Source: Candidatus Poribacteria bacterium (lineage in GTDB: Bacteria > Abyssobacteria > SURF-5). From it: a stretch of DNA of 39,906 nucleotides. The stretch lies in contig JACRIR010000121.1 in the NCBI GenBank assembly GCA_016215705.1, forward strand, positions 1-39,906, given 5' to 3'. The translations under genes and the position numbers were made by a program. Of the stretch, positions 7,217 to 39,906 are shown in pieces (the stretch's first letter is position 1; every line of letters begins with the position of its first letter). The notes beneath the pieces are model-generated. The model did not search any database. It had not been told where the DNA came from and worked only from the letters and a program-made list of their open reading frames with translations.

Positions 7217-8515
7217 CTAGCCGTGGGCCTTGAAATTCTCTTCGTACCAGGTTTTCCATTTCCCGACGTCGGACCCGTAGGGTCTGTGTGTTATCTCTTC
7301 GAGAACCGAGAGCGCGCGTTTGGCCTGGGCCACGTTTGGACTATCGATGACATTTATGAGCGCGTGAACGGATTGCAGCTCGCCCATGTTGACCAATGCC
7401 ACTGCGGCATTGTCAGCAACCGTGCTGTCGGCGTCGCCCAAGGCTTCGACCAATTCATTGATCACGGACGCATCCGCAGCGTTTACAAGGGCCTGTGACG
7501 CTTGACGACGCACGATGGCCGCGCGATCTTTCAACGCGCCCGCCAGCGCGCGGGTCGCAGAGGGGTCTTTGGTCGCTCCGAGCGATGCCGCTGCTTTCGA
7601 GCGGACATTTGCGCTCGGGTCGGACAACAATCCAACCAACGCCTGGACAGCTTCCGGCGTCTTAATCTCGCCGAGCGCTACTGCGATGTCGGTCCGCACG
7701 GATTCAGTTTCGTGCGGAATCGCGTCAACAAGCGCGCTAACCGCGTATTCACTCCCGACTTTCCCGAGGGCTGACGCGATCATGCGGCGGACGTTCTCAT
7801 CGCTTTCACGTTGCATCGCGATTGCAAGCGCCTTACCCGCAGCCGGGTCCTTCACGTTTCCGAGCGCGATAGCCGCGTACTTCCTTGCCTTAGGTTCTTC
7901 GTCATTCAGGCCCTGAACGAAAATATCCCGGCTTGAGGGAGAGCCTATCTCATACAATGCGTATATAACCTCGCCGCGGACGTTCTTGTCCTTGTCGGCA
8001 GCCATGCTTTCGAGACTCTTGACGACACCCCTGTTCTCCTTCGTCCCAAGTCTTCCGAGCACATAGGCCGAATACTCGCGAACACGGGGATTCAAATGAG
8101 TCGTATCCTCAATGAGCGCAGGGAAAATGCTCTCGTCGCCGATTTTTGCCAGGGATTCCGCCGCAGCCTTCTGGACAACCTCTTCGCGGTCTTTCAGCGC
8201 ATTCAAGAGATTAGGGAGTGCTTCCTTGGCTCCGCGTTCGCCGAGCAGCTCGGCGGCGTAACGGCGCTGATATCTAAGCTCGGCGTGCTCAAGCGCGTGC
8301 GCAAGTTGAGAGGTCGAGCATGAGGGGTCCACAAGGACAGGGTCTGCCTTTCCCTGGTTTTGGGCAACAATCACGCGAGCCTCCACGGATTCGGCGACGG
8401 AACAAGAAGCCGGCCGGGGCGCGCCGGCTGACACCAGGAGGACAACCGCACACGCCAGGAAACCTGATTTCCACTCTCTAGCATTCGATGAACTTGCCGG
8501 TTCAGAATTGTTCAT
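7217..8515 (-). CDS. Secreted HEAT/PBS-lyase-like repeat protein
   Basis: A 432-residue protein with an N-terminal signal sequence (SGFLACAVVLLVSAGAP). Most of the rest is HEAT/PBS-type alpha-helical repeats such as ALPNLLNALKDREEVVQKAA, EPKARKYAAIALGNVKD and DPSANVRSKAAASLGATKD, around eight to ten units of about 31 residues. Such solenoids bind proteins. The Cys near the signal cleavage site (RPASC) is not a clean lipobox. Start ATG 8515 was chosen over an upstream ATG because the signal peptide follows directly and AAAAGG lies upstream. A strong promoter sits at 8589-8616. Its partner is unknown. Confidence 0.85.
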   Translation of the reverse strand: MNNSEPASSSNAREWKSGFLACAVVLLVSAGAPRPASCSVAESVEARVIVAQNQGKADPVLVDPSCSTSQLAHALEHAELRYQRRYAAELLGERGAKEALPNLLNALKDREEVVQKAAAESLAKIGDESIFPALIEDTTHLNPRVREYSAYVLGRLGTKENRGVVKSLESMAADKDKNVRGEVIYALYEIGSPSSRDIFVQGLNDEEPKARKYAAIALGNVKDPAAGKALAIAMQRESDENVRRMIASALGKVGSEYAVSALVDAIPHETESVRTDIAVALGEIKTPEAVQALVGLLSDPSANVRSKAAASLGATKDPSATRALAGALKDRAAIVRRQASQALVNAADASVINELVEALGDADSTVADNAAVALVNMGELQSVHALINVIDSPNVAQAKRALSVLEEITHRPYGSDVGKWKTWYEENFKAHG

Positions 8516-8588
8516 GCTTAAGTTGCCTTTTCGGAAAACAGTTTTTTCACTTATCTGTCCGACACGCCTTTGCTCTATTCTTCTTACA

Positions 8589-8616
8589 ATTATACAAGTT
8601 GTCCGCAAAAAATCAA
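8589..8616 (-). promoter_or_regulatory. Sigma-70 type promoter for the HEAT-repeat gene
   Basis: On the minus strand TTGATT (8616-8611) and TATAAT (8594-8589) are 16 bp apart. The -10 matches consensus perfectly. The untranslated leader would be about 65 nt. Confidence 0.65.
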
Positions 8617-10724: not shown

Positions 10725-10765
10725 CTTATTCGCGGAAACCATGCCGCATGGTGTCTACGAATAAG
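10725..10765. repeat. Two-tier perfect dyad symmetry element
   Basis: CTTATTCG (10725-10732) is perfectly inverted at 10758-10765 (CGAATAAG). Inside, CCATGC (10739-10744) is perfectly inverted at 10746-10751 (GCATGG) around a single C. The unpaired stretches on both sides are six bases each, so the element is exactly symmetric about 10745. It may be an operator or an RNA/DNA cruciform. Confidence 0.5.
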
Positions 10766-14087: not shown

Positions 14088-17000
14088 ATGCCACCGATCT
14101 TCTTCAAGACATTGAAAGCCTTGCTTCTCATCTTTCTGCTAGTGTGCCTTCCCTCAGACTCCTCGGGGGATACAACAAATTCCCCAAGAGAAATCCATCT
14201 CTGGCATCAATGGACGGGCAGCAGGCGGGAGATTCTTGAATCCATCATCAAGGACTTCAACTGCTCGCACGCGGACGTCCGTGCGCATGCCGAGCTATTT
14301 GGTCCTGCCGGGGGAACCATAGCCGAACGAATGCCGGCGGGGACCGCCTCCACCGAAACACAAGGATTGCCGGATATCGCGCTGGTTGAACGTCAGGCAA
14401 TTCCTCTGCTTGCTGACTCGGACGCCATAGCATCTCTAGACGAGTTCATTGAGTCCTCTGCTGCACTCAAAAAAGAAAGCTTTTTCGACAATGCATTCGC
14501 GTATGGCGCCTTCAACGGCAAACTCTACGGGATACCTGTAACTCTCAACCCATTTGTGCTCATATACAACCCGAATCTTCTTTCGGAATATGGTCTCTCC
14601 GAGCCGCCTGAGGAGTGGGATGCATTAGCCGGCCTCGCAAAAGCGGTCAACGCTCATATGACGGATCACCCCGGGGACAGACAGCGGGTATTGAGCGTGC
14701 GATCGATGGCCATTCTTTTCGACATCCTGTGTCTGCAAAAGGGAATAGACTTGTGTGCTCTGAACAGCAATCCTGAGAATATCGCCGCTATAAGAGACAA
14801 TCTCGGTTTTGTCCGCGAACTAAGACGCAACGGTTCGCTGCCGCCTGCTCAGTACAAGTTCTGGGATCCGAATTTCATGGGGATCGCGGGAGGAGATGTG
14901 TTGTTTCAGATAGATGACGCTGCGATGCTTGCCGATCTAACCGAAGAAACGTCCTTCCCGCTTTCAGTCGGTCCGGTTCCTGACAGCGCATCCATGCGCC
15001 AAACGCTTCTGTCGGAGAGCGCGGTGTTCGTAGTTTCCAAAACCGTCAGTGATTATTCCGCGATATTGGAATTCCTCGAATTCTTCTATTTACCCAGGCA
15101 ATACGCCCGTTTCGCGAGAGAACTTCTGTTCGTTCCACCATTAACGCAAACACTTCCGGCTGTCGAGGTTATGCTTTCAGACAGGCCGCTCTACGGACAG
15201 CTCGCGGGCGCCGCCGTGAGAGCCGGCTCATTTCCGCTCCGCAAAGAAAGCGGACGAGCGCTCTCAGAAATCGCGCGTGCGATAGAGCGACTTGATGCCG
15301 GTCTGATTTCGGAAGAGCAAGCGATCGCGGATATTCAGAATGCGGACGAACATAAAAGCAAGGTAGAGTCAAAGGTCTCAGGCCCACGCATTCGCGTGAC
15401 ATGGGCCGAGAGCACACGCAGGCTCCGGGCCACCGACGCAGGCGGTCCAAAGGATTTCCCGATTGAGATTGCTTGCGCGAGAAACGAGCACGAGACCTTC
15501 CAGTTGGCCCTCAGCGCCGACAGCGCGGTCGACGGATTGACGGTAACGTTGGCGCCTTTCACTTCGTCAGACGGCAGATCCTGCGAGATTAAGGCGTTGA
15601 CCTACCTCGAAGAGGACACACTTATTTCCACTCCTCTGGTTGCAGAGACAAAAGGGCTTTATCCGAATGTTCTGCGGCGCCGGGACGTATTCGACGTAGT
15701 TCCCGGAACGCTGACGCGGATATGGGTCGATGTCTTTGTGCCAAGGGAAGTCGCGCCCACGCGATATCACTCCCGGCTCACAATAGCTCATGAAGGCATG
15801 GACCCTGTCGAAGCGCCGGTTCAACTCGACGCACTGCCGATGACGCTTCCGACAACTCCGTCTCAGCCGGCCGTTGTCGGGCTGAACTATGACCTGACAG
15901 CAAAGCGCTACGACCTGAAGGAAGGAACGGATGAGCGGCTAAGACTGGAGGATTCTTTTTACTGGTTTCTTGTGGAACACAGGTTGTCGCCCTATCAGCC
16001 GCCGGTTCCACTCGATGATGCGCGTATCGCTCGCTACCTGCAAGACGAGCGCGTCTCGTCTTGCAGAATACCTTTTCCCCCGGATGACCCAAGGTTTAAG
16101 AGAGTGATTTCACTGGCAGCGGACGGCGGCTGGCTGGAGAAGCTCTTTGTGTATTTCATCGATGAGCCCACCTATCATCAGTATGAGGCGATAATTAGTA
16201 CGGGGAAGATGATCCGCTCGTTTCCGCTGTCTCCGAAGTTCCTGGTCACATGCTTTCCGGATCAATTCCTGCTTGGCGCAGTCGATATATGGTGCATCCA
16301 CATGCAGTTCCTGCCCGAGGGTATCCCGCGCAGTTTTGTGGACCGGCAAAGGAACTTCGACGCCGTGAACCGCCGCTTAGATGCGGGAGACGAGGTGTGG
16401 TGGTATACTGCGGGCGCAGTGAAGCCGTTCCCTACACTCCAGATAGAGGATGATCCGCCCGCGTTCAGAATCATAGCATGGCTTCAGCAACTTTATGGCA
16501 TCGGAGGTTTTCTTCATTGGGAGACTGCCAATTGGCGCCAGCCGATCGATGAACCCTTTATTCCACAGTTCGGCAACGGCGAAGGTGTGCTCATATATCC
16601 CGGCGATGGTCTGCAACCGGCCCCTTCAATCCGGTTGGAGCTGCTTCGCGAGGGCATGGAGGACATGGAGTTCCTCATGCTGCTCCGCCGCAACGTTCGG
16701 GCCGTTCAAGAAAAATTGGCGGCAGAGAAGTTTGGAGACGTGGCGTCAGGCAGGGTTCGGGAGATGTGTCGGGCGCTGGTCTCAGATGAAGTGTTGCGGG
16801 CTGAACCATTCGACGACTTGTCGGCGCAATCCCATTTCATTCGCGAACCCGGACTCATAGAACGGGTGCGAATGGACGTTGTCAAAGAGATACTTGCGCT
16901 GGAGAAGAAACCCCTGGCTCTGGTGTTGACGCAGCCGGAGGAAAAGAGCTACACTCAAGCGTTGGAGGCGCGCATATACGGCATCGCGGAACGGGGTTCC

Positions 17001-31876: not shown

Positions 31877-31931
31877 TCTATGACAAATAGTTACAACCTC
31901 AAATTCCGTTGTTTGATTCAAGGTTTCATTG

Positions 31932-31947
31932 TGGCACACTATTTGCT
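31932..31947 (+). promoter_or_regulatory. Sigma-54 (-24/-12) promoter of the pseudopilin operon
   Basis: TGGCACACTATTTGCT: the GG (31933-31934) and GC (31945-31946) are separated by exactly 10 bp, and TGGCAC and TTGCT match the consensus. Transcription would start near 31958, about 430 nt before the first pseudopilin ATG. No better candidate serves the operon. The gene-free span 31606-32387 contains otherwise only repeats and the terminator. Confidence 0.8.
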
Positions 31948-32197
31948 CGGAGAGATAGTTGGTAAATGAAACTTTAGATGTCTCTGCCAGGTTTCCGAAC
32001 TGGTTGCGGCGACGGCGCGGCAGACATAAGCTGGTTCATAACAAGGAGATGTAAGGGACACAGAGAGCAGCGAACTTCTGTATGCTCATCCACTATTGGC
32101 GCCGTTCTGGTTGGTGGTGTGGGGGAATGATTTTGCTGACAATTCCCCAAAAGGGATAATTTTGTCTCAAAAGAGATTGAAAAGAAGAGGCTTTGGA

Positions 32198-32247
32198 ACC
32201 ACGGAGGGCACGGGGAGCCGTCGCGTTCTCCATGCTTTCCGTGGTTG
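32198..32247. repeat. Solo inverted-repeat element (AACCACGGA arms)
   Basis: AACCACGGA (32198-32206) is perfectly inverted as TCCGTGGTT (32239-32247) around a 32-nt loop. The arms carry the same ACCACGGA core as the repeats that flank the second GxxExxY gene. Confidence 0.55.
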
Positions 32248-32271
32248 ACAAAGGTTTCCGGTTTCTTGAAA

Positions 32272-32355
32272 TTCGTGTAATTAGTGTAATTCGTGTTCCA
32301 AAGAGAAGTCTTTATTCGTGTAATTTGGTTGTTGATTCGTGACATTCGTGTTCCG
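32272..32355 (-). repeat. ATTCGTG-type dispersed repeat array in the operon leader
   Basis: ATTCGTG occurs at 32272, about 32290, 32314, 32335 and 32345, linked by TAATT, ACATT and TTCC, within about 85 bp just upstream of the first pseudopilin's ribosome site. It is the same type, in the same orientation, as the right flank of the first GxxExxY gene. Confidence 0.65.
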
Positions 32356-32387
32356 AGATTTGAGGTTTCTTGAAAGGAGAGTCTAAG

Positions 32388-33638
32388 ATGCCGCGCGTGC
32401 TCGGGGATAAGCGTGGGTTCACCCTAACTGAACTTCTGGTGGTGGTCGCAATCATAGTCCTTTTAGTATCGATAGTTGTCCCGAACATAGCGGGCCGCCT
32501 GACCACGGCGCGCATGCACTCGGTCGAGGATCAGATTGCCGAGATTGAGGCCGCTCTTGCGGCATATCATGCCGACTTCGGGACGTATCCGGGCGACGTG
32601 TGGCCCACGGAGGACAAGAATAACGATGGTGTGTTGACGAATGAGGACGTCGATGATGACGATGTTCTGGACGCGACCGAAGACCTCAACAACAATGGCG
32701 CGCTGGACAACGAAGATATCGGCGTTGACGTGGACAGAGATGGCATTTCCGACTACGCCTGCAGCAGCACCGGCGGGCATGCGCACAACGGTCGGCTTGA
32801 CCACGGCGACGGCGTCATAAACATTCTCGACCTCGAGTGGGCTCTGAAAACCACCGCGAAAAACGGCCCTTATATGGAAGATATCCCCCTTGATGCGTGG
32901 GATAATAAATACGTCTATTATGCCCCGATGGACAGACCGCAGGGAACAGCGGCAGACCAGGATTTCCTTTGGATAAATCCGTCCGAAGTCGGCGACCTCA
33001 TTACCACGGAGGACGCAAACGGTAATGGCCGCCTGGACACCGGAGAGGATACGGGAATTGCCGACTACGATGTCAATACCGCCCTGAATCCTAACGTTCG
33101 CACCAACGCCACGAGCTTCCTCGATATGAGTGCCGGCGCCGGTAACGGAGTGCTTGACCGCGGCGATGATGACAATGGGAATGGAACTATCGAGAGGTAT
33201 AACATAACGACTGCCTCGCCGGTAGTGCTTGAGTACGGCAACAAGGACGTTTCGCCTGACGGCCTCGCTCGGAATGCCGGCTACTACGTTTACTCGGTCG
33301 GCAGAAACAGGAAAGACGAGACGGCCATCGGCTATGAAGATATCAACAGGAACGATCAACTCGATGGATCAATCACGACCGACAGCGGCGCATTTGATGA
33401 AGACAGCATCAGCAATGACGACACGCTTGACACCGGCTACGAGGACACCGGACTCGACGGAATTCCCGGCACCAAGGATAACGGCGAGGATGACGGCAAA
33501 CTCACAATAGGCACTGACTCGCCACCGGTCTCGTCTGAGGACTTTGACGGCGATAATGAACTTGATATCGGCGGCGACGACATGAATAGCTGGAACAAGA
33601 AGCAGCCGTGGCGCGAACACAAGAGCTATGGAGGATAA
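32388..33638 (+). CDS. GspG-like major pseudopilin, enlarged with Ca-binding-like loops
   Basis: A 416-residue prepilin-like protein; GspG is normally about 140-150 residues. The leader MPRVLGDKR ends at RG|FTLTELLVVVAI, with Glu5 present. The helix and NIAGRLTTARMHSVEDQIAE followed by ALAAYHADFGTYPGD are typical GspG. The rest is spread out by acidic 12-residue loops of EF-hand or dockerin pattern (DxNxDGxLxxxD): DKNNDGVLTNED (from about 76), DLNNNGALDNED (about 99), DANGNGRLDTGE (about 209), DINRNDQLDG (about 318). ATG 32388 has AAAGGAG 7 bp upstream. It is the first gene after the sigma-54 promoter and should be cleaved by a prepilin peptidase and act in a secretion pseudopilus. Confidence 0.88.
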   Translation: MPRVLGDKRGFTLTELLVVVAIIVLLVSIVVPNIAGRLTTARMHSVEDQIAEIEAALAAYHADFGTYPGDVWPTEDKNNDGVLTNEDVDDDDVLDATEDLNNNGALDNEDIGVDVDRDGISDYACSSTGGHAHNGRLDHGDGVINILDLEWALKTTAKNGPYMEDIPLDAWDNKYVYYAPMDRPQGTAADQDFLWINPSEVGDLITTEDANGNGRLDTGEDTGIADYDVNTALNPNVRTNATSFLDMSAGAGNGVLDRGDDDNGNGTIERYNITTASPVVLEYGNKDVSPDGLARNAGYYVYSVGRNRKDETAIGYEDINRNDQLDGSITTDSGAFDEDSISNDDTLDTGYEDTGLDGIPGTKDNGEDDGKLTIGTDSPPVSSEDFDGDNELDIGGDDMNSWNKKQPWREHKSYGG

Positions 33639-33642
33639 TTCC

Positions 33643-33733
33643 GATTTTGGATTGCGGATTGCGGATCTTGGATTGAGAAGAAGAGACAAACCGCAGGAAC
33701 GCAAAGGAGAATAGACCACAAAGGTCACGGATT
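33643..33733 (+). repeat. Mixed dispersed repeats after the first pseudopilin
   Basis: A GGATTG/TTGGATTG array (33643-33680), ACCGCAGGAACGCAAAGGAG (33690-33709) and GGTCACGGATTTGGG (about 33723-33737), separated by purine-rich stretches. The 33639-34159 gap holds only repeats and a hairpin. Confidence 0.5.
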
Positions 33734-33761
33734 TGGGAAAAGAAAGAGAAAAGGATCGGGG

Positions 33762-33830
33762 AGCCACAGAGGTCACTGAGAAGAAATAGCAGAATCGGTA
33801 TTCTATGTGCGCTCCGTGCTCTTTGTGGCT
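33762..33830. repeat. Solo inverted-repeat element (AGCCACA arms)
   Basis: The 19-nt arm at 33762-33780 (AGCCACAGAGGTCACTGAG) is inverted at 33812-33830 with 15 of 19 matches, around a 31-nt loop. Confidence 0.55.
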
Positions 33831-33842
33831 AGCGGATTGAGG

Positions 33843-33875
33843 AATCCAAAATCTAAAATCTAAAATCCAAAATCC
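33843..33875 (+). repeat. Seven-base tandem repeat (AATCCAA-like)
   Basis: Units AATCCAA / AATCTAA repeat with a 7-base period about 4.7 times. The same unit forms the leader codons of the last pseudopilin (36913-36944). Confidence 0.7.
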
Positions 33876-33897
33876 CAAGAGCCCTTTCCCCGGGTAA

Positions 33898-33955
33898 CAC
33901 CGGGTCCGGGCGACTTGAGCGGTCTGAAAAGGCTGCTCCCGCGCCAGACCCGGTG
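33898..33955 (+). repeat. Long GC-rich hairpin between pseudopilin genes
   Basis: CACCGGGTC (33898-33906) pairs perfectly with GACCCGGTG (33947-33955). Inside, GGCG pairs with CGCC and GAGC with GCTC. TATTATTAAG follows. It could be an attenuator or RNA-processing stem that sets different expression before and after it; the following run is A/T-mixed, not a T-tract. Confidence 0.5.
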
Positions 33956-33975
33956 TATTATTAAGCAAAAGACCG

Positions 33976-34000
33976 GAATCCGCAGATTTGCGCGGATTGG
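33976..34000 (+). repeat. CGCAGATTTGCGCGGATT dispersed repeat
   Basis: AATCCGCAGATTTGCGCGG followed by ATTGG. A close relative stands at 36672-36703 and a shorter one near 29861. Confidence 0.5.
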
Positions 34001-34037
34001 ACTACACCACGAAGACATCACGGAAAAAAAAGAGATG

Positions 34038-34107
34038 AACCACCAAGGTACGAAGACACAAAGTAAAGCAAAAGAAAAAGGAAAGTCTCTTTGATGCCTT
34101 GGTGGTT
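34038..34107. repeat. Solo inverted-repeat element (AACCACCAAGG arms)
   Basis: AACCACCAAGG (34038-34048) is perfectly inverted as CCTTGGTGGTT (34097-34107) around a 48-nt loop that is purine-rich on the left. ACCACGAAGACATCACGG (about 34005) abuts it on the left. Confidence 0.65.
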
Positions 34108-34120
34108 GAAATGCTTTTTG

Positions 34121-34156
34121 ATCAGTGAAAATCAGCGAAATCTGCGGATAAAAGAG
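34121..34156 (+). repeat. ATCAGTGAAAATCAGCG ... GCGGATAAAAG repeat before the second pseudopilin
   Basis: Ends three bases before the ATG at 34160. The near-identical 36868-36903 ends directly before the ATG at 36905. Its AAAAGAG may also act as ribosome site. Confidence 0.6.
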
Positions 34157-34159
34157 CCT

Positions 34160-34987
34160 ATGAAGAAACGCGGTTATACAATTGTCGAGATGATGGTGGT
34201 GCTGGCTATCATAGCGCTCATGATGGCCATAGTCGTCCCGCGTTTCGCAGTATCTCAAAAGGGCGTGGCGCTTAAGGGCGCTTCTCAGGAGGTGATGTCG
34301 GCGCTCCGCACCGCGCGCCGGCTGGCGATACTCGGCATAAGGGATATCAGCCAGGCGACCCAGATGTACGCGGTCGCGTTCGATATATATTCCGTTCCCG
34401 CCCGGTTCGCCGTCATTCGCAAGACGGGCTCGGCGAGCGATTGGAATTCGTGGCAGATTACTTATGATTTCAAGGACTTGCCGGAGAACATCGCGATCGC
34501 GGCGATCAACCAGCCCGGCTATACCGCGTTCAACGTGACCAGAACCGATGACAATACTCTTGATGGCGTCGAGGATTCTCTATCAAGCGACCTGATATGG
34601 AACCCACAGGCGCCTTCGGCCGGGAACGGGATCACGAATATTGTGTACCGGCTCGTAAAGTTCCGGCCCACGGGAACGGCAGACCCCGTCATAATCTATC
34701 TCTGGAACACAAAAGAGGGGAGACAGGAGATTCCGAATCCGACAGTCGGCATGACGCTCTCCAACTTGCACACACTCGGCGTGCCACCCGGCCTGCAACT
34801 CGACGATCTGAATGATCAACAAAGCTTCTTGCGGCTGCCGAGCGAGGTATCGACATTCGATTCGTACTACTACACGATCGTCGTCAGCTCGATAACCGGC
34901 AGCGTTACCGTCTACGATTATGCATGGGGTGAGGGCGGTGGAACAACGCCGAACATGAGATGGGACCGCAAGAAAGACGGATCGTAA
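34160..34987 (+). CDS. GspH/FimT-like minor pseudopilin
   Basis: A 275-residue prepilin-like protein with a short leader MKKRG|YTIVEMMVVLAIIALM, Glu5 present, and the GspH/FimT-type continuation QEVMSALRTARRLAILG, longer than the usual 170-200 residues. The body is predicted beta-rich and lacks the acidic loops seen in the other three. ATG 34160 is the only start with a normal leader. It is second in the operon, as H follows G in standard type II secretion loci. Repeat 34121-34156 directly precedes it. Confidence 0.85.
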   Translation: MKKRGYTIVEMMVVLAIIALMMAIVVPRFAVSQKGVALKGASQEVMSALRTARRLAILGIRDISQATQMYAVAFDIYSVPARFAVIRKTGSASDWNSWQITYDFKDLPENIAIAAINQPGYTAFNVTRTDDNTLDGVEDSLSSDLIWNPQAPSAGNGITNIVYRLVKFRPTGTADPVIIYLWNTKEGRQEIPNPTVGMTLSNLHTLGVPPGLQLDDLNDQQSFLRLPSEVSTFDSYYYTIVVSSITGSVTVYDYAWGEGGGTTPNMRWDRKKDGS

Positions 34988-35000
34988 GAAGAGGTTCGAA

Positions 35001-35592
35001 CACGAATGTCACCAATGGAACACGGATAGCATGAATGAATCAAGAAGAGGATTTGGATCACAAATATCACAAATGGAACGGATGACACGAATGGAAGTGA
35101 AATCTGAAAAAGAACTCCTCTGTGGAGATCTCTCATACGAAATTATTGGCGCGGCGATGGAAGTTCACAACGCTCTTGGGCCGGGATTTACTGAGAACAT
35201 TTATGAAGAAGCGCTTTGTGTTGAACTGGGAAACAGAAGGATCAAGCTCGATCGTCAGAAAGCCATCATGGTAAATTACAAAGGCGTTAATGTGGGCGAC
35301 TACGTTCTGGATATGATAGTCGAAGGCAGGATCATATTGGAACTCAAAGCTACCACAGAACATAGTCCCATCTTTGACGCACAGATTTACTCGTATTTGA
35401 GGGCCACTGGACTCAAGCTTGGGCTCTTGATAAATTTTGGAGCCCAAAAGCTGTCGCACAAGAGGATCGTGAATTGAATCCTTCTATTTCACATATTGGT
35501 TTTTCTCAAGACGAAGTTATTCGTGATATTCGTTCCATTCGTGTGATTCGTGATCCCTTTTCTTCTTCTTCCATTCGTGCGATTCGTGATCC
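35001..35592. mobile_element. Putative GxxExxY element 1 with nested inverted repeats
   Basis: The GxxExxY gene (35091-35477) lies between two tiers of inverted repeats. Inner arms 35055-35094 and 35517-35556 match at 31 of 40 positions when inverted (core AATGGAACG). Outer arms start CACGAATGTCACCAATGGAA (35001-35020) and are inverted within about 35563-35582 (17 of 20). Between the tiers the left side has a purine tract (AAGAAGAGG) and the right side its complement (CTTTTCTTCTTCTTCC). The gene's ATG lies in the left inner arm, and the right arms are read through as the leader of the next pseudopilin. Target duplications were not identified. Confidence 0.55.
35091..35477 (+). CDS. GxxExxY protein (PD-(D/E)XK nuclease-like), copy 1
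   Basis: A 128-residue protein of the GxxExxY family (Pfam PDDEXK_3-like). The name motif is G32-F-T-E35-N-I-Y38 in LGPGFTENIYEEAL, preceded by IGAAMEVHNALG. A nuclease-type triad is visible as D74 (YVLDMIV), E84 and K86 (IILELKAT), with the C-terminal YLRATGLKLGLLINFG. No substrate is established for the family. Base use is more A/T-rich than in the neighbours. It interrupts the pseudopilin operon, starts inside an inverted repeat, and its TGA overlaps the TTG opening the next frame. The second copy (39123-39494) is clearly diverged, so this is not a recent duplication. Confidence 0.85.
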   Translation: MEVKSEKELLCGDLSYEIIGAAMEVHNALGPGFTENIYEEALCVELGNRRIKLDRQKAIMVNYKGVNVGDYVLDMIVEGRIILELKATTEHSPIFDAQIYSYLRATGLKLGLLINFGAQKLSHKRIVN

Positions 35593-36661
35593 CGGTTTCA
35601 CCCTTCTGGAAGTTCTGATCTCGATGGCGATCATCGGGGTGGGCCTGATTGCGCTCGTGTCGTTGTTCCCGGTCGGGCTGCGCTCCTCGAGGCTCGCGGG
35701 CGACTTTACGACCGCTGCGCTCATCGGCCAGCAGGCGCTCGACAACATACGCGCCACGGCGCAGGTGTATGATCCGGCGGATATGTTCGACGAGGATAAC
35801 GACGGCGACCGATTCGACGATCCCAATGGCGACGGTCTCGGTTACTATGACCTTCCGATTTCCGCTGTGAAAGGCTTTCTCTCCCCTCTCCGGTTCCCCA
35901 CGGAGCCCACACAGTCGCAAACGTTGACAATAGAAATCACAGGCGTCGGCCCTCCTGCAACATTTTCGGTGACGAGTTCCATTTCGGGCGCTGTAGGCAC
36001 AGGATCGGCTGGCTCGCTTTTCACCTCGAGTGACAACGCAGTTGCATTCATCCTCTCTGACAACGTGGACGGTCCTGCTTTGACAGTGACCCCCGCCTAT
36101 TCGTCCCCGACGGACAGAAATTATGAAGAATTCGCCGTCGGCGACAAGATCGTTGTCAGCCTCGAGATGCGCGGAGGCAATCCCTATTATTGGTACGCGA
36201 TGCGCGCGCCAGTGACGGAGGATTTGGACCTCGATGGGATTCTCGACGGACGCCTCAATGACGGAACTGCGAACGGGACGCTCCGAAGCGCTCCACACAA
36301 TCAGGTGCAAGAGGACACCGGGCTTGATCTTCTGCCGGATTTCTGGGACCGGAACAACAACGGCTCATATCAGGCCGGGATCGATCAGCGGGGCGAATGG
36401 ACGCAGTCAGCGGCGCTTCCGGCTCCTCCCGCGGTCGAGATTGACTTACACGGCGACAACCGATATGCGTATGACACGACCACGGGATGGTGGCTAAGCC
36501 CCTTGGCCGAAGTTAATGCTGCCGGAACGGAAGGCAATGAGCAGATTGACGCATGGGACGACGATTCGATGCAGAAGGTGACGGTCACGGTTGGTTGGCG
36601 CGAGGGCAGCCAGGACCGCGCGGCCGTATTCAGCGCGTCGATAGCGAATCAGTACAGGTAA
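35474..36661 (+). CDS. GspI/PilV-like minor pseudopilin with a repeat-encoded leader
   Basis: Up to 395 residues; GspI is usually about 120-130. The mature part starts PG|FTLLEVLISMAIIGVGL with Glu5 and continues ALVSLFPVGLRSSRLAGDFT and ALIGQQALDNIRA. Acidic loops follow: DEDNDGDRFDD (about 106), DLDLDGILDG (about 252) and DRNNNGSYQAGID. The leader is written by ATTCGTGAT-type repeats and reads as IRDIRS, IRVIRDPF and IRAIRDP. The start may be TTG 35474, overlapping the GxxExxY stop, or GTG 35543, giving a 17-residue leader; neither has a clear ribosome site. The third of four pseudopilins, it is probably translated by coupling to the GxxExxY gene. Confidence 0.82.
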   Translation: MNPSISHIGFSQDEVIRDIRSIRVIRDPFSSSSIRAIRDPGFTLLEVLISMAIIGVGLIALVSLFPVGLRSSRLAGDFTTAALIGQQALDNIRATAQVYDPADMFDEDNDGDRFDDPNGDGLGYYDLPISAVKGFLSPLRFPTEPTQSQTLTIEITGVGPPATFSVTSSISGAVGTGSAGSLFTSSDNAVAFILSDNVDGPALTVTPAYSSPTDRNYEEFAVGDKIVVSLEMRGGNPYYWYAMRAPVTEDLDLDGILDGRLNDGTANGTLRSAPHNQVQEDTGLDLLPDFWDRNNNGSYQAGIDQRGEWTQSAALPAPPAVEIDLHGDNRYAYDTTTGWWLSPLAEVNAAGTEGNEQIDAWDDDSMQKVTVTVGWREGSQDRAAVFSASIANQYR

Positions 36662-36671
36662 GAAGAAGATG

Positions 36672-36903
36672 AATCCGCAGATTGCGCAGATTTACGCGGA
36701 TTTCGAGAATGAAGAAAGAGAAAGAAAAGAGGGATTTGGAATCACGGACTACACTGATTACAGGGATTCTGGGAAACGAGAAGAAGAAAAGGAAAAAAGT
36801 CATTAACCACGGATTCACACGGATTTTCACGGATTCTTGGGGAAGAAGGAAGAGAAAAGGTCTTGCTTGATCTGTGAGAATCAGCGTAATCAGCGGATAA
36901 AAG
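36672..36903 (+). repeat. Four-unit dispersed-repeat block between the third and fourth pseudopilins
   Basis: CGCAGATTGCGCAGATT (about 36676), AATCACGGACTACACTGATT (36740-36759), a triple ACACGGATT-like array starting TTAACCACGGATT (36803-36836), and GAGAATCAGCGTAATCAGCG then GATAAAAG (36868-36903). Each unit is followed by a purine-rich spacer such as GAGAAGAAGAAAAGG. There is no gene. Confidence 0.65.
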
Positions 36904-36904
36904 T

Positions 36905-38971
36905 ATGTATTTAATCCAAAATCCAAAATCCAAAATCCAAAATCAGAAGGGCTTTACACTTGTCGAGTTGCTGGTGGCCCTGGCCATAGCGTCCATACTC
37001 ATGCTCGGGCTCATCGCAGCGTTTCAGACGACCCAGCGCACGGCTGCCGTCGGAGAAGCGCGCGAGCAGATTTACCAGAACGCCCGCGTTGCGCTCGACC
37101 TTATGGCGCGGGAGATCAAGGGCGCCTATATCGACAACCGCAACCGCGACCTCGTTTTTGTGAGCGCCGACGGATTGGGGGGACGGGGGAACAGCATCCT
37201 TCAATATGACCCGGCCAATCCTACCAACTCCGCTTCATGGGTACTCGGCCTGGGCAATGCACAGACTCCGCACGGAATTGACCCGACAGGGCCATTAGTA
37301 TTTTACCTCTACGCTGACAGAACTTTTGGAAGTCCGATATTCACGGACCGCACGGTCAAAGCGCTAGGCGCTAATGGATTCCCGGCGCCTGACCTTCGGC
37401 CCGGCCCGCCGGACCGACTCGATTTTGCATGTCTCACGGCCAATTACCCGGGCAATACCGGGAACGAATCCCGCCTGGCTGAAGTGCGGTACATCGTCAC
37501 GACGGAGACTTTCGTTGATGACGTTGACAATGACCGCGCTGACGGTGCGGATAGCGCCGACAACGATCCCCCTGGCTCAGGCGCTATGGGTCTCGGCGAC
37601 ATGATAGCCATGAATCCGCAGTACCGAACCGAGGATTTTAACGAGACCACAGGAAAGATAAAAGGGCTCTCACTGTTCCAAATTCGGCGCGCCCTCGATA
37701 TCTCTCCGGATAAGAATCCGTTTTCGGTTTCCGATATTCCGATCTGTAGTTCTCCTCCTTGTCCTCCGGGAGCATTTACTCCTGTGGATCCGAATGGCCG
37801 CTATCCGGACCGCAATCTAGCAGATTTCGAGACCACGAACAACGGCGAAAACATCGGTTCTTATATTTATGACTTGCAGTTGGAGTTCTACGGAAGAATC
37901 GCCATTGCGCTCGATGCCGGCGGCGCACCCGAAGTTTGGGGTGTTGGGTGGGACTATCAGGATGTGAGAGGAGAAGACGTAGGAACCGACTGCGGCGGGA
38001 CATTGGGAGCGGGCGACCAGGGGGCGCAGGCTGTAAACGTAGGAACCGTACAAGTGACGCGGGGCAGCACTTCCGTGACCGGCACTGGCACGGCATGGGT
38101 AGCCGGCCTCGCCGGAGGCGTCTTTTTCATTTGGCCGACGAGCGCAACTGAGTTTGACGTTACGGACCCGGACAATAAGGTATATACAATCGCGTCGGTC
38201 GCCGGCGCCACCTCTCTGACTCTGGATAGACCGTACGAGGAAGCTGACGCCACTGGTCTGGCATACCGCATCATCGAGCCGACACAGGCGAATGGCATTC
38301 TGGATGGAGTAGGCACAGCGAACTCGGAAGACCGTGGCGCTGACGGGCTTGGTGACGGACTTCCAGGCGCGCCTTTGGATGACGAGCTCGACGACGGAAG
38401 CGGCATCCCGAATAACGTGAGCGATAATGATGGCGTAACTGACGAACCAAGCGTAGGACAAGGCAATGGCAGACTCGATAGCCGCGTGATGGGTATATGG
38501 GATAGCCGCTCGCCCGACCCGAGGAATCCAAGGAGAGCGGCGGAACTTGACGGGGTAGATAATGACAGTGATTCAGGCATGGTGGCAGGAGGCGGCCTTG
38601 GCAATGACACTGTCGACAATGACAGTGATGGTGTTGTTGATGATCGAACGGCCGCTTTCGTCGATGGCGCAAACAATGTCGCATATGCTTCTCCCGAAGC
38701 TAATGATCCTGCCACAACCGGTACCGACGAGACAAATGATCTTGTCGATGATGATGACTTGAACGGTACGCCGGGTGACGACGGCATAGCGGACGACCGG
38801 TTCTATGAGCCTGCGGGCAAGCCGGAGGGGATTGACGAACCGGACGAGGCGAGCCCGAATGACGATACTCTGCCGAAGGCGGTGCGGATAACCATAGCGG
38901 TATCGGACTCGCAGCAGTCGCTTGAGCCGGTGGTGCTGAGCACCACGGTGTGGCTCTCAACGGCCAAGTAA
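36905..38971 (+). CDS. GspJ/PilW-like minor pseudopilin, very large, repeat-encoded leader
   Basis: 688 residues; GspJ is usually about 200. The mature start is KG|FTLVELLVALAIASILM, followed by AREQIYQNARVALDLMAREI, which is typical of GspJ/PilW. The leader MYLIQNPKSKIQNQK is encoded by a seven-base tandem repeat (36913-36944). Acidic Asp/Asn/Gly-rich loops dominate about 195-225 and 480-670 (VDNDSDSG, VDNDSDGVVDD, DLNGTPGDDGIADD). At about 380-450 there is an inserted beta module, VGTVQVTRGSTSVTGTGTAW then SVAGATSLTLDRPY, like that of phage tail or baseplate proteins. The stop codon overlaps an AACCACGGATT repeat. It is probably the operon's fourth component; no GspK-like gene is seen within the window. 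Confidence 0.85.
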   Translation: MYLIQNPKSKIQNQKGFTLVELLVALAIASILMLGLIAAFQTTQRTAAVGEAREQIYQNARVALDLMAREIKGAYIDNRNRDLVFVSADGLGGRGNSILQYDPANPTNSASWVLGLGNAQTPHGIDPTGPLVFYLYADRTFGSPIFTDRTVKALGANGFPAPDLRPGPPDRLDFACLTANYPGNTGNESRLAEVRYIVTTETFVDDVDNDRADGADSADNDPPGSGAMGLGDMIAMNPQYRTEDFNETTGKIKGLSLFQIRRALDISPDKNPFSVSDIPICSSPPCPPGAFTPVDPNGRYPDRNLADFETTNNGENIGSYIYDLQLEFYGRIAIALDAGGAPEVWGVGWDYQDVRGEDVGTDCGGTLGAGDQGAQAVNVGTVQVTRGSTSVTGTGTAWVAGLAGGVFFIWPTSATEFDVTDPDNKVYTIASVAGATSLTLDRPYEEADATGLAYRIIEPTQANGILDGVGTANSEDRGADGLGDGLPGAPLDDELDDGSGIPNNVSDNDGVTDEPSVGQGNGRLDSRVMGIWDSRSPDPRNPRRAAELDGVDNDSDSGMVAGGGLGNDTVDNDSDGVVDDRTAAFVDGANNVAYASPEANDPATTGTDETNDLVDDDDLNGTPGDDGIADDRFYEPAGKPEGIDEPDEASPNDDTLPKAVRITIAVSDSQQSLEPVVLSTTVWLSTAK
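36913..36944 (+). repeat. Seven-base tandem repeat inside a prepilin leader
   Basis: AATCCAA repeats about 4.5 times with a 7-base period inside the coding sequence, writing QNPKSKIQN. Because seven is not a multiple of three, gain or loss of one unit would shift the frame. Confidence 0.75.
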
Positions 38972-39022
38972 ACCACGGATTCAATATGGGCTTGGGGTAA
39001 AGAAGAAGAAAAGAAGAAGAGT

Positions 39023-39743
39023 TATTAACCACGGATTTTCACGGATTTCAGAAAGAAGAAAAAGAAGAGAACATAAGACTGCGGATTCAGGAAAAGAGTA
39101 ATTCACAGATAAGGGGATATGATTGAGTAAATTGCTGTATGAAGACCTCAGTGGAAAAGTGATTGGCGCGGCGATGGAGGTTCATTCGACTCTGGGTCCG
39201 GGCTTCTTGGAGAGTGTATATGAAGAAGCCCTTGCTTATGAGATGCAATTGCAGCGCGTTGCTTTCGAGCGTCAAAAAGCGCTGCCTGTTTATTACAAGG
39301 ATAGACAAGTCAAAGAGTTCTTCTGCGATTTCTGGATTGACGGGAAGATCATGGTTGAAATAAAGGCATTGAAAACGCTGACGACATCTGAAGAAGCTCA
39401 ACTAATGAACTATTTGAAAGCAACTGGCGTGAAACTTGGTATGCTCCTGAATTTCGGAGAAGCGTCACTCAAGTTCAAAAGGCTCATTGTTTAATCCATG
39501 CTTTGCTTTGGAAGAATCCGTGGTTAATAAGTGGTTTCTTGATTTCTTTTTCTTCTTGTTTTTTCGGTAGACAAAGGGCTTTTGATCCGTGAGAATCCGT
39601 GGTTGAGAAAAGATTCTTTTTTGACCTTGTTTATGAGAAATATCCGTGTGAATCCGTGGTTAATAAATCAGTTTCCGTTTCTCTTTCTTCTTGCTTTTTC
39701 GGTAAACGAGAGGTCTTTAATCCGTGAAAATCCGTGGTTAATA
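39023..39743. mobile_element. Putative GxxExxY element 2 with perfect 25-bp inverted repeats
   Basis: TATTAACCACGGATTTTCAC and the next five bases (39023-39047) are perfectly inverted at 39719-39743. The GxxExxY gene 39123-39494 lies between them. Purine tracts stand on the left (AAGAAGAAAAGAAGAAGAG) and pyrimidine tracts on the right (TTTCTTTTTCTTCTTG). The arms are of the CACGGATT type, whereas element 1 uses the CACGAAT type. Further copies lie inside the right flank, so the true boundary is unsure. Confidence 0.5.
39123..39494 (+). CDS. GxxExxY protein (PD-(D/E)XK nuclease-like), copy 2
   Basis: A 123-residue GxxExxY protein. The motif is G27-F-L-E30-S-V-Y33 in LGPGFLESVYEEAL after VIGAAMEVHSTLG. 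The nuclease-like triad D69 (FFCDFWI), E79 and K81 (MVEIKAL) has the same ten-residue D-to-E spacing as copy 1, and YLKATGVKLGMLLNFG is the shared C-terminal block. Elsewhere the two differ at roughly half of positions. The start is TTG 39123 with AAGGGGA upstream; ATG 39119 is out of frame. It is more A/T-rich than the pseudopilins before it and sits between inverted CACGGATT-type repeats. Confidence 0.85.
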   Translation: MSKLLYEDLSGKVIGAAMEVHSTLGPGFLESVYEEALAYEMQLQRVAFERQKALPVYYKDRQVKEFFCDFWIDGKIMVEIKALKTLTTSEEAQLMNYLKATGVKLGMLLNFGEASLKFKRLIV

Positions 39744-39775
39744 GGTCAGTTTCCGTTTCTTTTTCTTATAGCGGA
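39515..39775 (-). repeat. Array of ATCCGTGGTTAATA-type repeats
   Basis: Four copies of the AATCCGTGGTT core in one orientation (39515, 39594, 39651 and 39729), spaced 57-79 bp. A roughly 60-bp direct repeat is visible, 39549-39608 against 39684-39743 (TTTCTTCTTG, TTTTTCGGTA, ATCCGTGA and AATCCGTGG blocks shared). TCAGTTTCCGTTTCT also occurs twice (39668 and 39746). Nothing else is seen in 39495-39832. Confidence 0.7.
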
Positions 39776-39832
39776 CCCGATTTACTTGGACAGGGAGAAT
39801 AGTGTAGGCTGAATGTCCAAGGAGGTAAGCGG

Positions 39833-39906
39833 ATGAGCAAGGGAGAGCAGCAAGAAGGGGGCGCGCTGGCTGGAACGGAAGGAGGCCGTAGGCCGACTGG
39901 AGTTCC
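39833..39906 (+). CDS. Start of an unidentified gene cut by the window edge, possibly frameshifted
   Basis: ATG 39833 follows a very strong AAGGAGG at 7 bp, so a gene starts here. Its frame gives MSKGEQQEGGALAGTEGG. If one G of the GGGGG run is dropped, the frame becomes MSKGEQQEGARWLERKEAVG, which reads more like a real N-terminus and faintly recalls transposase helix-turn-helix starts. Only 74 bases are visible, so no product is named. Confidence 0.4.
   Translation, partial: MSKGEQQEGGALAGTEGGRRPTGV

Follow-up and report, generated by a model that had tools for sequence, protein, structure and literature searches.

A GxxExxY gene between inverted arrays of a short repeat: a candidate single-gene mobile hairpin element

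GxxExxY proteins are a widespread family without an assigned role, named in no more than two papers of the open-access literature that we searched. One gene of this family lies between inverted repeats in the window, i.e., the whole stretch of 39,906 nucleotides that was analyzed. The question raised by this locus is whether the gene and its repeats form one unit and, if they do, whether this unit is a mobile element or an RNA-structured cassette; both had been proposed in a preliminary description made from the sequence alone, which also suggested that the encoded protein may recognize or cut the repeat.

The focal gene and related repeats in the window

The GxxExxY nuclease-like identity given in the preliminary description held. 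In profile searches, the focal ORF scored far above the curated cut-offs of TIGR04256 (145 bits, E 1e-42; cut-off 35) and Pfam PDDEXK_3 (135 bits; cut-off 22), which were the sole families found, and both the GxxExxY motif and a D...ExK active site are present in the protein.

The inverted arms described around the gene were confirmed by a repeat search, with inverted matches between (i) 35055-35092 and 35519-35556 (38 nt, 82%, 31/38), (ii) 35078-35097 and 35568-35587 (20 nt, 85%, 17/20), and (iii) 35000-35016 and 35528-35544 (17 nt, 82%). Their interpretation as two nested tiers failed insofar as two distinct structures were meant. The tiers are tandem copies of one repeat: the right arms, at 35533-35557 and 35569-35593, repeat each other directly with 96% identity, and all four focal arms are versions of a single sequence built of C-R-C-N-R-A-(T/G) units, e.g., CACGAAT. 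The placement of the gene's ATG inside the left inner arm held in part, as the in-frame ATGs at 35073, 35082, and 35091 lie inside this arm and the one at 35031 just outside it; the conserved domain begins near position 35127.

The local inverted-alignment score of the focal locus was 37 (mean 19 and maximum 32 in 100 shuffles). With purine tracts masked it was 35, a level attained by fewer than 0.5% of control intervals, and the inverted-repeat signal of this locus on its own is thus moderate. Single-strand folds of either side alone were no better than those of shuffled sequences; therefore, the palindrome at this locus requires both sides.

Table 1. Positions of the focal element, the second element and the gene-less repeats in the window
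Feature	Position	Strand	Description
Left outer arm	35001..35027	+	CACGAATGT-CACCAATGGAA-CACGGAT, three CRCNRA units
Left inner arm	35055..35097	+	holds three in-frame ATGs of the GxxExxY gene
GxxExxY gene (TIGR04256 / PDDEXK_3)	35031..35477	+	148-aa ORF; conserved domain ~35127-35474
Right inner arm	35519..35557	-	complement of the left arms
Right outer arm	35568..35593	-	96% identical direct copy of the right inner arm
Gene-less hairpin, same family	32196..32247		ACCACGGAGGGCACGGGGAG ... CTCCATGCTTTCCGTGGT; DNA fold z -3.05
Gene-less repeat	33717 (within 33717..33827)		CACAAAGGTCACGGAT
Gene-less facing arms	33765 / 33812-33827		CACAGAGGTCACTGAG / complement of CACAAAGAGCACGGAG
Gene-less hairpin	34038..34109		ACCACCAAGG ... 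CCTTGGTGGT; DNA fold z -3.1
Gene-less facing arms	36808..36895		CACGGATTCACACGGATTTTCACGGAT / complement of CGCTGATTACGCTGATTCTCACAGAT
Left arm of second element	39030..39046	+	CACGGATTTTCACGGAT
Second GxxExxY gene	39123..39494	+	49% identical, T-type clade
Three right arms of second element	39585-39601, 39642-39658, 39720-39736	-	span 39585..39736

The extent originally assigned to the feature, 35001-35592, was too narrow, since a second GxxExxY gene lies elsewhere on the contig, as do hairpins of this family that enclose no gene (Table 1). The arms of the second element are of the CACGGATT flavor, and the nearest named relative of its gene is found in Candidatus Abyssobacteria SURF_17 (82%), which makes an origin of the window in this group probable. 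Gene-less hairpins occupy nearly every gap of the surrounding pilin cluster (~32.2, 33.8, 34.0, 36.8, and 39.5-39.8 kb). Six GxxExxY copies are carried by the genome from which the window was taken (G000; 5.47 Mb, 270 contigs), every one of them with inverted flanks of its own flavor, e.g., AACCACGGGGAACACGGGG or AACCGCCGATGAACGCCGAT.

The focal gene lies between prepilin-like genes: one at 34163-34987, a PilV-like ORF starting at 35474, and a third at 36905-38971. In the region 35474-35603, the right outer arm reads in frame as ...IRDPFSSSSIRAIRDP ahead of the prepilin start GFTLLEVL, and a heptamer array at 36905-36950 as IQNPKSKIQNQK ahead of GFTLVELL, so these repeats seemingly encode prepilin leaders. 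The prepilin-like proteins at 32370-33638 and 36905-38971 contain many Asp/Asn-rich DxDxDG calcium-type motifs. Near-perfect palindromes at 10725-10765 (~40 bp) and 16038-16066 (~29 bp) are unrelated to the repeat family. The contig end (39767-39906) is 91% identical to G002:C21:38153-38292 and resembles the beginning of a further dispersed element.

The gene and its arms across genomes

For each gene, an IR score was calculated by aligning the 250 bp upstream to the reverse complement of the 250 bp downstream, with purine/pyrimidine runs masked, and a score of ≥30 was taken as an inverted repeat pair. In the first set (110 genes from ~60 genomes; controls were same-size intervals in the same loci), this threshold was reached by 80 genes (73%) compared to 1.0% of 4310 control intervals (p 2e-58), with median scores of 37 and 18, respectively. 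An independent set spanning more than 15 phyla, including archaea (Methanophagales, Aenigmatarchaeota), gave 49 of 80 named loci (61%) versus 0.85% of control intervals. The comparison suggested in the preliminary description, with other genes of equal size, had the predicted outcome: 70% of 183 GxxExxY genes with full flanks versus 2.6% of 425 same-size ORFs from the same loci. Each arm matches the arm on the other side of its own gene (median 36), while partners taken from other loci gave a median of 18, with 4% at ≥30.

The few control ORFs scoring ≥30 include several S23 or RAYT genes; a RAYT-like gene with REP-like arms, caught by the same ORF scan, serves as a positive control. The pairing of GxxExxY genes with inverted arms is therefore real and general. 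Genes without flanking repeats, which would have spoken against a unit, were not found in the sense originally envisaged; at ~30% of GxxExxY genes the arm pair was undetected by this method, and most of the genomes sampled are MAGs.

The arms are all built alike, each from two or three C-R-C-N-R-A-(G/T) units in a fixed orientation, spaced 8-10 bp apart (mode 9). Chains of at least three units were found upstream on the coding strand at 53/110 genes and downstream on the template strand at 54/110, compared to 9-11/110 for chains placed the wrong way round and a background of 0.7%. Genome-wide counts were based on pattern searches and fetched stretches. GxxExxY was present in 72 of the 386 sampled genomes at the strict cut-off, and the strict three-unit pattern CCACNGAN{2,4}CACNGAN{2,4}CACNGA occurred in 51 of these 72 versus 23 of the 314 genomes without the gene (odds ratio 31, p 8e-29; 1371 versus 116 sites). 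The mirror control of this pattern was almost absent. Nine of the 23 pattern-bearing genomes scored as gene-less, including one with 62 sites, contain broken or partial (decayed) GxxExxY copies. Repeats equally dense elsewhere, the other outcome that would have told against the unit, were not seen: few other genes are flanked by such pairs, and genomes lacking the gene seldom contain the repeats.

Gene-less arm pairs less than 300 bp apart were oriented in the gene-flanking sense in 47 cases and in the opposite sense in 13 (fetched loci); in the first set the counts were 17 and 0. When facing arms were 300-800 bp apart, a GxxExxY gene lay inside in 51 of 53 cases and a GxxExxY fragment in one of the remaining two, a ratio obtained from loci picked around the gene and not a genome-wide estimate. 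In genome G142, six GxxExxY copies, tandem and clustered, lie within ~41 kb (L093:15690-16500; L116). Harmless cultured organisms with GxxExxY genes include Longilinea arvoryzae, Marinilabilia salmonicolor, and Pelagicoccus mobilis. A RAYT-like gene with inverted AAATAGGGACAGCCCC arms (L067:2877-3542) adjoins two GxxExxY elements.

Arms differ in flavor by the final base of the unit (G versus T or A), and this flavor tracks the protein. On a tree of 110 proteins it changed 7 times, compared to 25 times in shuffles; for 187 proteins, the tree showed 5 changes (shuffle mean 33, minimum 23). For pairs from different bacterial families, the last base was shared by 22% at 35-40% protein identity, 58% at 45-50%, 86% at 50-55%, and 98% at 60-65%, while other unit positions are almost free (A/G at position 2). 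Because neutral flanking DNA would not remain alike at such protein distances, the arms appear to be read by something. The simplest reader is the resident GxxExxY protein, which is an inference made without binding data, and co-inheritance of linked DNA may account for part of the tracking. Positions L/F53 and T/N121 emerged from mutual information as candidate specificity determinants and were rejected, being inseparable from phylogeny; no residue linked to flavor beyond phylogeny was identified.

The putative active site of the protein comprises E55, D94, E104-x-K106, Q118, and Y122 (numbering of the 148-aa ORF). Of 187 relatives, 184 retain all four of E55, D94, E104, and K106, and Q118, Y122, and N135 are nearly invariant. 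The dN/dS ratio between copies was 0.05-0.57 where measurable. From the intact active site and low dN/dS it can be inferred, in the absence of biochemistry, that an active nuclease is maintained. An AF2 model built from the window protein and 32 relatives (pLDDT 87.7, core >93) predicts a Cas4/RecB-like PD-(D/E)XK fold, the best solved-structure match being the Cas4 protein SSO0001 (4ic1; Foldseek E 4e-4, Z 10.3, 99 residues aligned). Later structural matches, to restriction, lambda-type exonuclease, and Hjc folds (Z 7-8), were not distinctive. The window protein had no match in a PDB sequence search, nor in viral contigs, phage records, or PHROGs; with a wider alignment, three viral contigs were matched. 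An Rfam search of 31900-39906 gave no match.

In the same genomes, a second gene family shows this layout. S23/IVP four-helix-bundle genes (TIGR02436) lie within inverted repeats scoring ≥30 in 24 of 28 cases, versus 3%. Their arms consist of 7-bp units (periods 7/14) compared to periods of 8-10 for GxxExxY arms, and the CRCNRA doublet occurs in 1 of 24 S23 arms versus 92 of 138 GxxExxY arms. S23 genes in heptamer arms form a second class of single-gene hairpin elements, in parallel to that of GxxExxY. The ORF carried by rRNA intervening sequences (IVS) is S23p, and IVS have been termed selfish elements bounded by terminal inverted repeats (PMC4990558); heptamer repeats have been reported without a gene partner (PMC4679880). 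S23 genes in inverted 7-bp arrays were observed at L176-L205, with L185 and L201 as examples from the window's genome. The window itself has gene-less heptamer (S23-type) repeats at 33640-33680, 33841-33885, and 36913-36948, the inverted pair GGATTGC.../CCAAAAT... among them.

Evidence for movement

The search for empty sites and target duplications in related genomes, also suggested in the preliminary description, was successful at other copies. The clean case is L107, from a complete genome, whose flanks share 80% and 76% identity with those of two congeneric species (G240 and G368). In both species the site is contiguous and the ~640 bp comprising the arms and gene of L107 are absent; the 7-bp sequence GGGGGTA stands at both ends of the L107 element and once in each empty site. 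At L076 the flanks are 99% and 98% identical to G362, in which 478 bp with arms and gene are replaced by an 18-bp filler. No clean duplication was found at this site, and the difference may represent a deletion (loss) instead of an insertion.

Homology between copies at unrelated sites stops at the edges of the arms: this was the case for L122 and L124 within one genome, and for the G000 copy L003, whose similarity to the G001 and G002 copies is confined to the stretch bounded by the two arm edges. L124 (reverse strand, about 7900-8600) lies directly after the start codon of a host gene, which we take to be hisG-like, with a 24-bp duplication, TTTTTTTATCAGGGTGAAAATATGAA, on both sides. The host RBS and ATG have therefore been duplicated, and the ORF of the element begins on the host ATG. 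Duplications reach up to the arm edges at L276 (40 bp) and L103 (at least 60 bp). Direct repeats between the two flanks reached a score of 20 at 48 of 186 loci (26%) versus 0.16% of shuffled pairs; some consist of host 3' ends plus an arm, others of whole hairpins on both sides. Duplication lengths thus vary from 7 to >60 bp, and the insertion chemistry cannot be deduced from them.

For the focal copy no readable empty site was obtained, as the contigs of the nearest relatives, G001 and G002, stop in repeats. These contigs (G001:C24 and G002:C78; L316, L317) end inside the repeat-rich pilin cluster, and repeats probably limit these MAGs. Among other candidate sites, synteny was absent between L073 and G202, the comparison of L087 with G362 was rejected as a larger rearrangement, and L144 aligned with G314 on one side only.

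Taken together, the gene and its arms appear to move as a unit, and an empty site with continuous flanks, as required of an autonomous element, was found for L107 and L076; catalysis by the encoded protein is inferred. There is strong support, from the controls, the independent replication, and the presence/absence between sister genomes, for regarding gene and repeats as a single unit, as proposed. Of the two natures proposed for that unit, the mobile element is favored by the empty sites, flanking duplications, and gene-less copies.

Interpretation and comparison with known systems

In our best reading, which we consider more likely than not, the focal gene with its arms represents one copy of a small mobile hairpin element that has a single gene and whose nuclease would recognize and cut its own arms. 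Because the arms are inverted, either strand can form a long hairpin that carries the gene in its loop; copies without a gene form short hairpins. The nuclease would most likely bind arms of its own flavor in a hairpin, in a cruciform, or as a single strand at a replication fork, and cut at the arm (hairpin, fork) or at the target. Host replication or repair would then copy the element, and gene-less hairpins in trans, to new intergenic sites, and the variable duplications of 7 to >60 bp would arise from this repair or copying. Unit structure, orientation, flavor tracking, gene-less copies, presence/absence, duplications, and an active site under purifying selection are shown. The suggested recognition of the repeat by the protein has only indirect support, from flavor tracking the protein tree across bacterial families; for cutting there is no evidence either way, and both cutting and the copying route remain inferred, without biochemistry.

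The most serious alternative, and a possible one, is that GxxExxY is a passenger: the hairpins would be moved by other machinery (reverse transcriptase, transposase, or template switching), with the protein as cargo or as an accessory protecting or resolving hairpins. In its favor, S23 genes, which do not encode nucleases, share the architecture with 7-bp repeats, so the layout needs no nuclease, and variable, partly long duplications are unlike those of a dedicated transposase. Against it, the grammar differs by gene family (periods 8-10 versus 7/14) and flavor tracks GxxExxY, an indication that the resident protein is what recognizes the arms; moreover, the repeats are concentrated in genomes with a GxxExxY gene, and few other genes were found inside arms of this type.

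An unlikely alternative is homing, in which the nuclease would cut pre-existing hairpins and the gene would be copied in by recombination, the hairpin being the target and not the end of the element. This agrees with several copies lying between two complete hairpins (L266, L155, L125, L089, L144) or beside a second arm (L080, L084, L106), and with the fold, that of a site-capable PD-(D/E)XK nuclease. However, the clean insertion relative to sister sites without any hairpin (L107) shows that arms can arrive with the gene. As possibilities, neither a passenger role nor homing into hairpins is excluded.

We consider very unlikely an RNA cassette resembling a toxin-antitoxin system, in which the arms would act in the transcript, as a hairpin affecting translation or stability or as an RNA neutralizing a nuclease toxin, and would serve retention and not movement. 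Start codons in or adjoining the left arm are compatible with it, and a repeat RNA with a small nuclease recalls type III toxin-antitoxin layouts. It is opposed by the existence of the arms as gene-less hairpins, their inverted and not tandem arrangement on both sides, the empty sites in sister genomes, and the lack of PHROGs, phage-record, or Rfam matches. Finally, the chance flanking of the gene by common intergenic repeats, suggested by a pilin cluster full of such repeats and a focal locus only moderately above shuffles, is all but excluded, being refuted by the comparison of 190 genes from more than 60 genomes with same-loci controls and by the orientation and flavor statistics.

The favored mobile-element reading can be extended to a bolder one, against which the balance still tips slightly: a new class of prokaryotic mobile elements, in bacteria and archaea, whose sole gene encodes a Cas4/RecB-like nuclease that would recognize and spread arrays of ~9-bp units and gene-less hairpins by nuclease-plus-repair, leaving target duplications of varying length. 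This class and the S23/heptamer elements would then belong to a wider class of single-gene hairpin elements in which the protein family determines the arm period, and a large part of the short repeats scattered through the intergenic DNA of environmental genomes would be accounted for. If so, abundant intergenic repeats that are usually unexplained and translated as spurious ORFs would have an origin, a non-HUH, non-DDE enzyme would join small mobile DNA, and IVS/S23, for which the question of mobility has stood open since the 1990s (PMC4990558), would have a parallel. The protein-specific repeat flavor makes GxxExxY function directly testable.

The association of GxxExxY with repeats was absent from the REP/RAYT, IVS, and heptamer-repeat papers searched, which does not prove that it is unpublished. 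With Cas4, RecB, and lambda exonuclease the protein shares the predicted fold and the motifs D...ExK...QxxxY, i.e., a RecB-type PD-(D/E)XK core. Unlike Cas4, its domain is only ~115 residues long, it is not encoded in a cas operon but by a lone gene within inverted repeats, and no cysteine occurs in its invariant or nearly invariant columns, as an Fe-S cluster would require. Like MITEs and DDE insertion sequences, the elements have terminal inverted repeats, short gene-less derivatives, and a target duplication at one site; unlike these, they have no DDE transposase, their arms are unit arrays, and the duplication length is not fixed.

The IVS of 23S rRNA genes (PMC4990558) are likewise ~450-650 bp long with one small ORF looped by a stem of terminal inverted repeats, and they are proposed selfish or mobile elements of unknown mechanism. 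However, an IVS sits in 23S rRNA and is cut out of the RNA by RNase III, whereas GxxExxY elements occupy intergenic DNA, the focal copy lying between prepilin genes and not in a 23S rRNA gene. The IVS ORF encodes an S23p four-helix bundle, the focal protein being PDDEXK_3 instead; the dispersed S23 genes with heptamer arms bridge the two.

The closest likeness is to the REP/REPIN/RAYT system (PMC2817692, PMC3116915). In both, (i) one small gene always lies between two inverted repeats, (ii) the repeats are also dispersed as gene-less inverted doublets making hairpins, and (iii) several flavors occur per genome, with concordant repeat and protein trees and lateral transfer. RAYTs, however, are Y1 enzymes (IS200/IS605-like, Transposase_17/Y1_Tnp) and not Cas4/RecB-like PD-(D/E)XK proteins. 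REP is a single GC-rich palindrome with a GT(A/G)G head, which the GxxExxY arm lacks, being an array of ~9-bp CRCNRA(G/T) units that is palindromic only as a pair. Fixed duplications are absent or few in both, and GxxExxY elements differ in having flanking duplications of up to >60 bp. By analogy, the GxxExxY element may thus work like REP/RAYT without being a member of that system, as its enzyme and its repeat are different.
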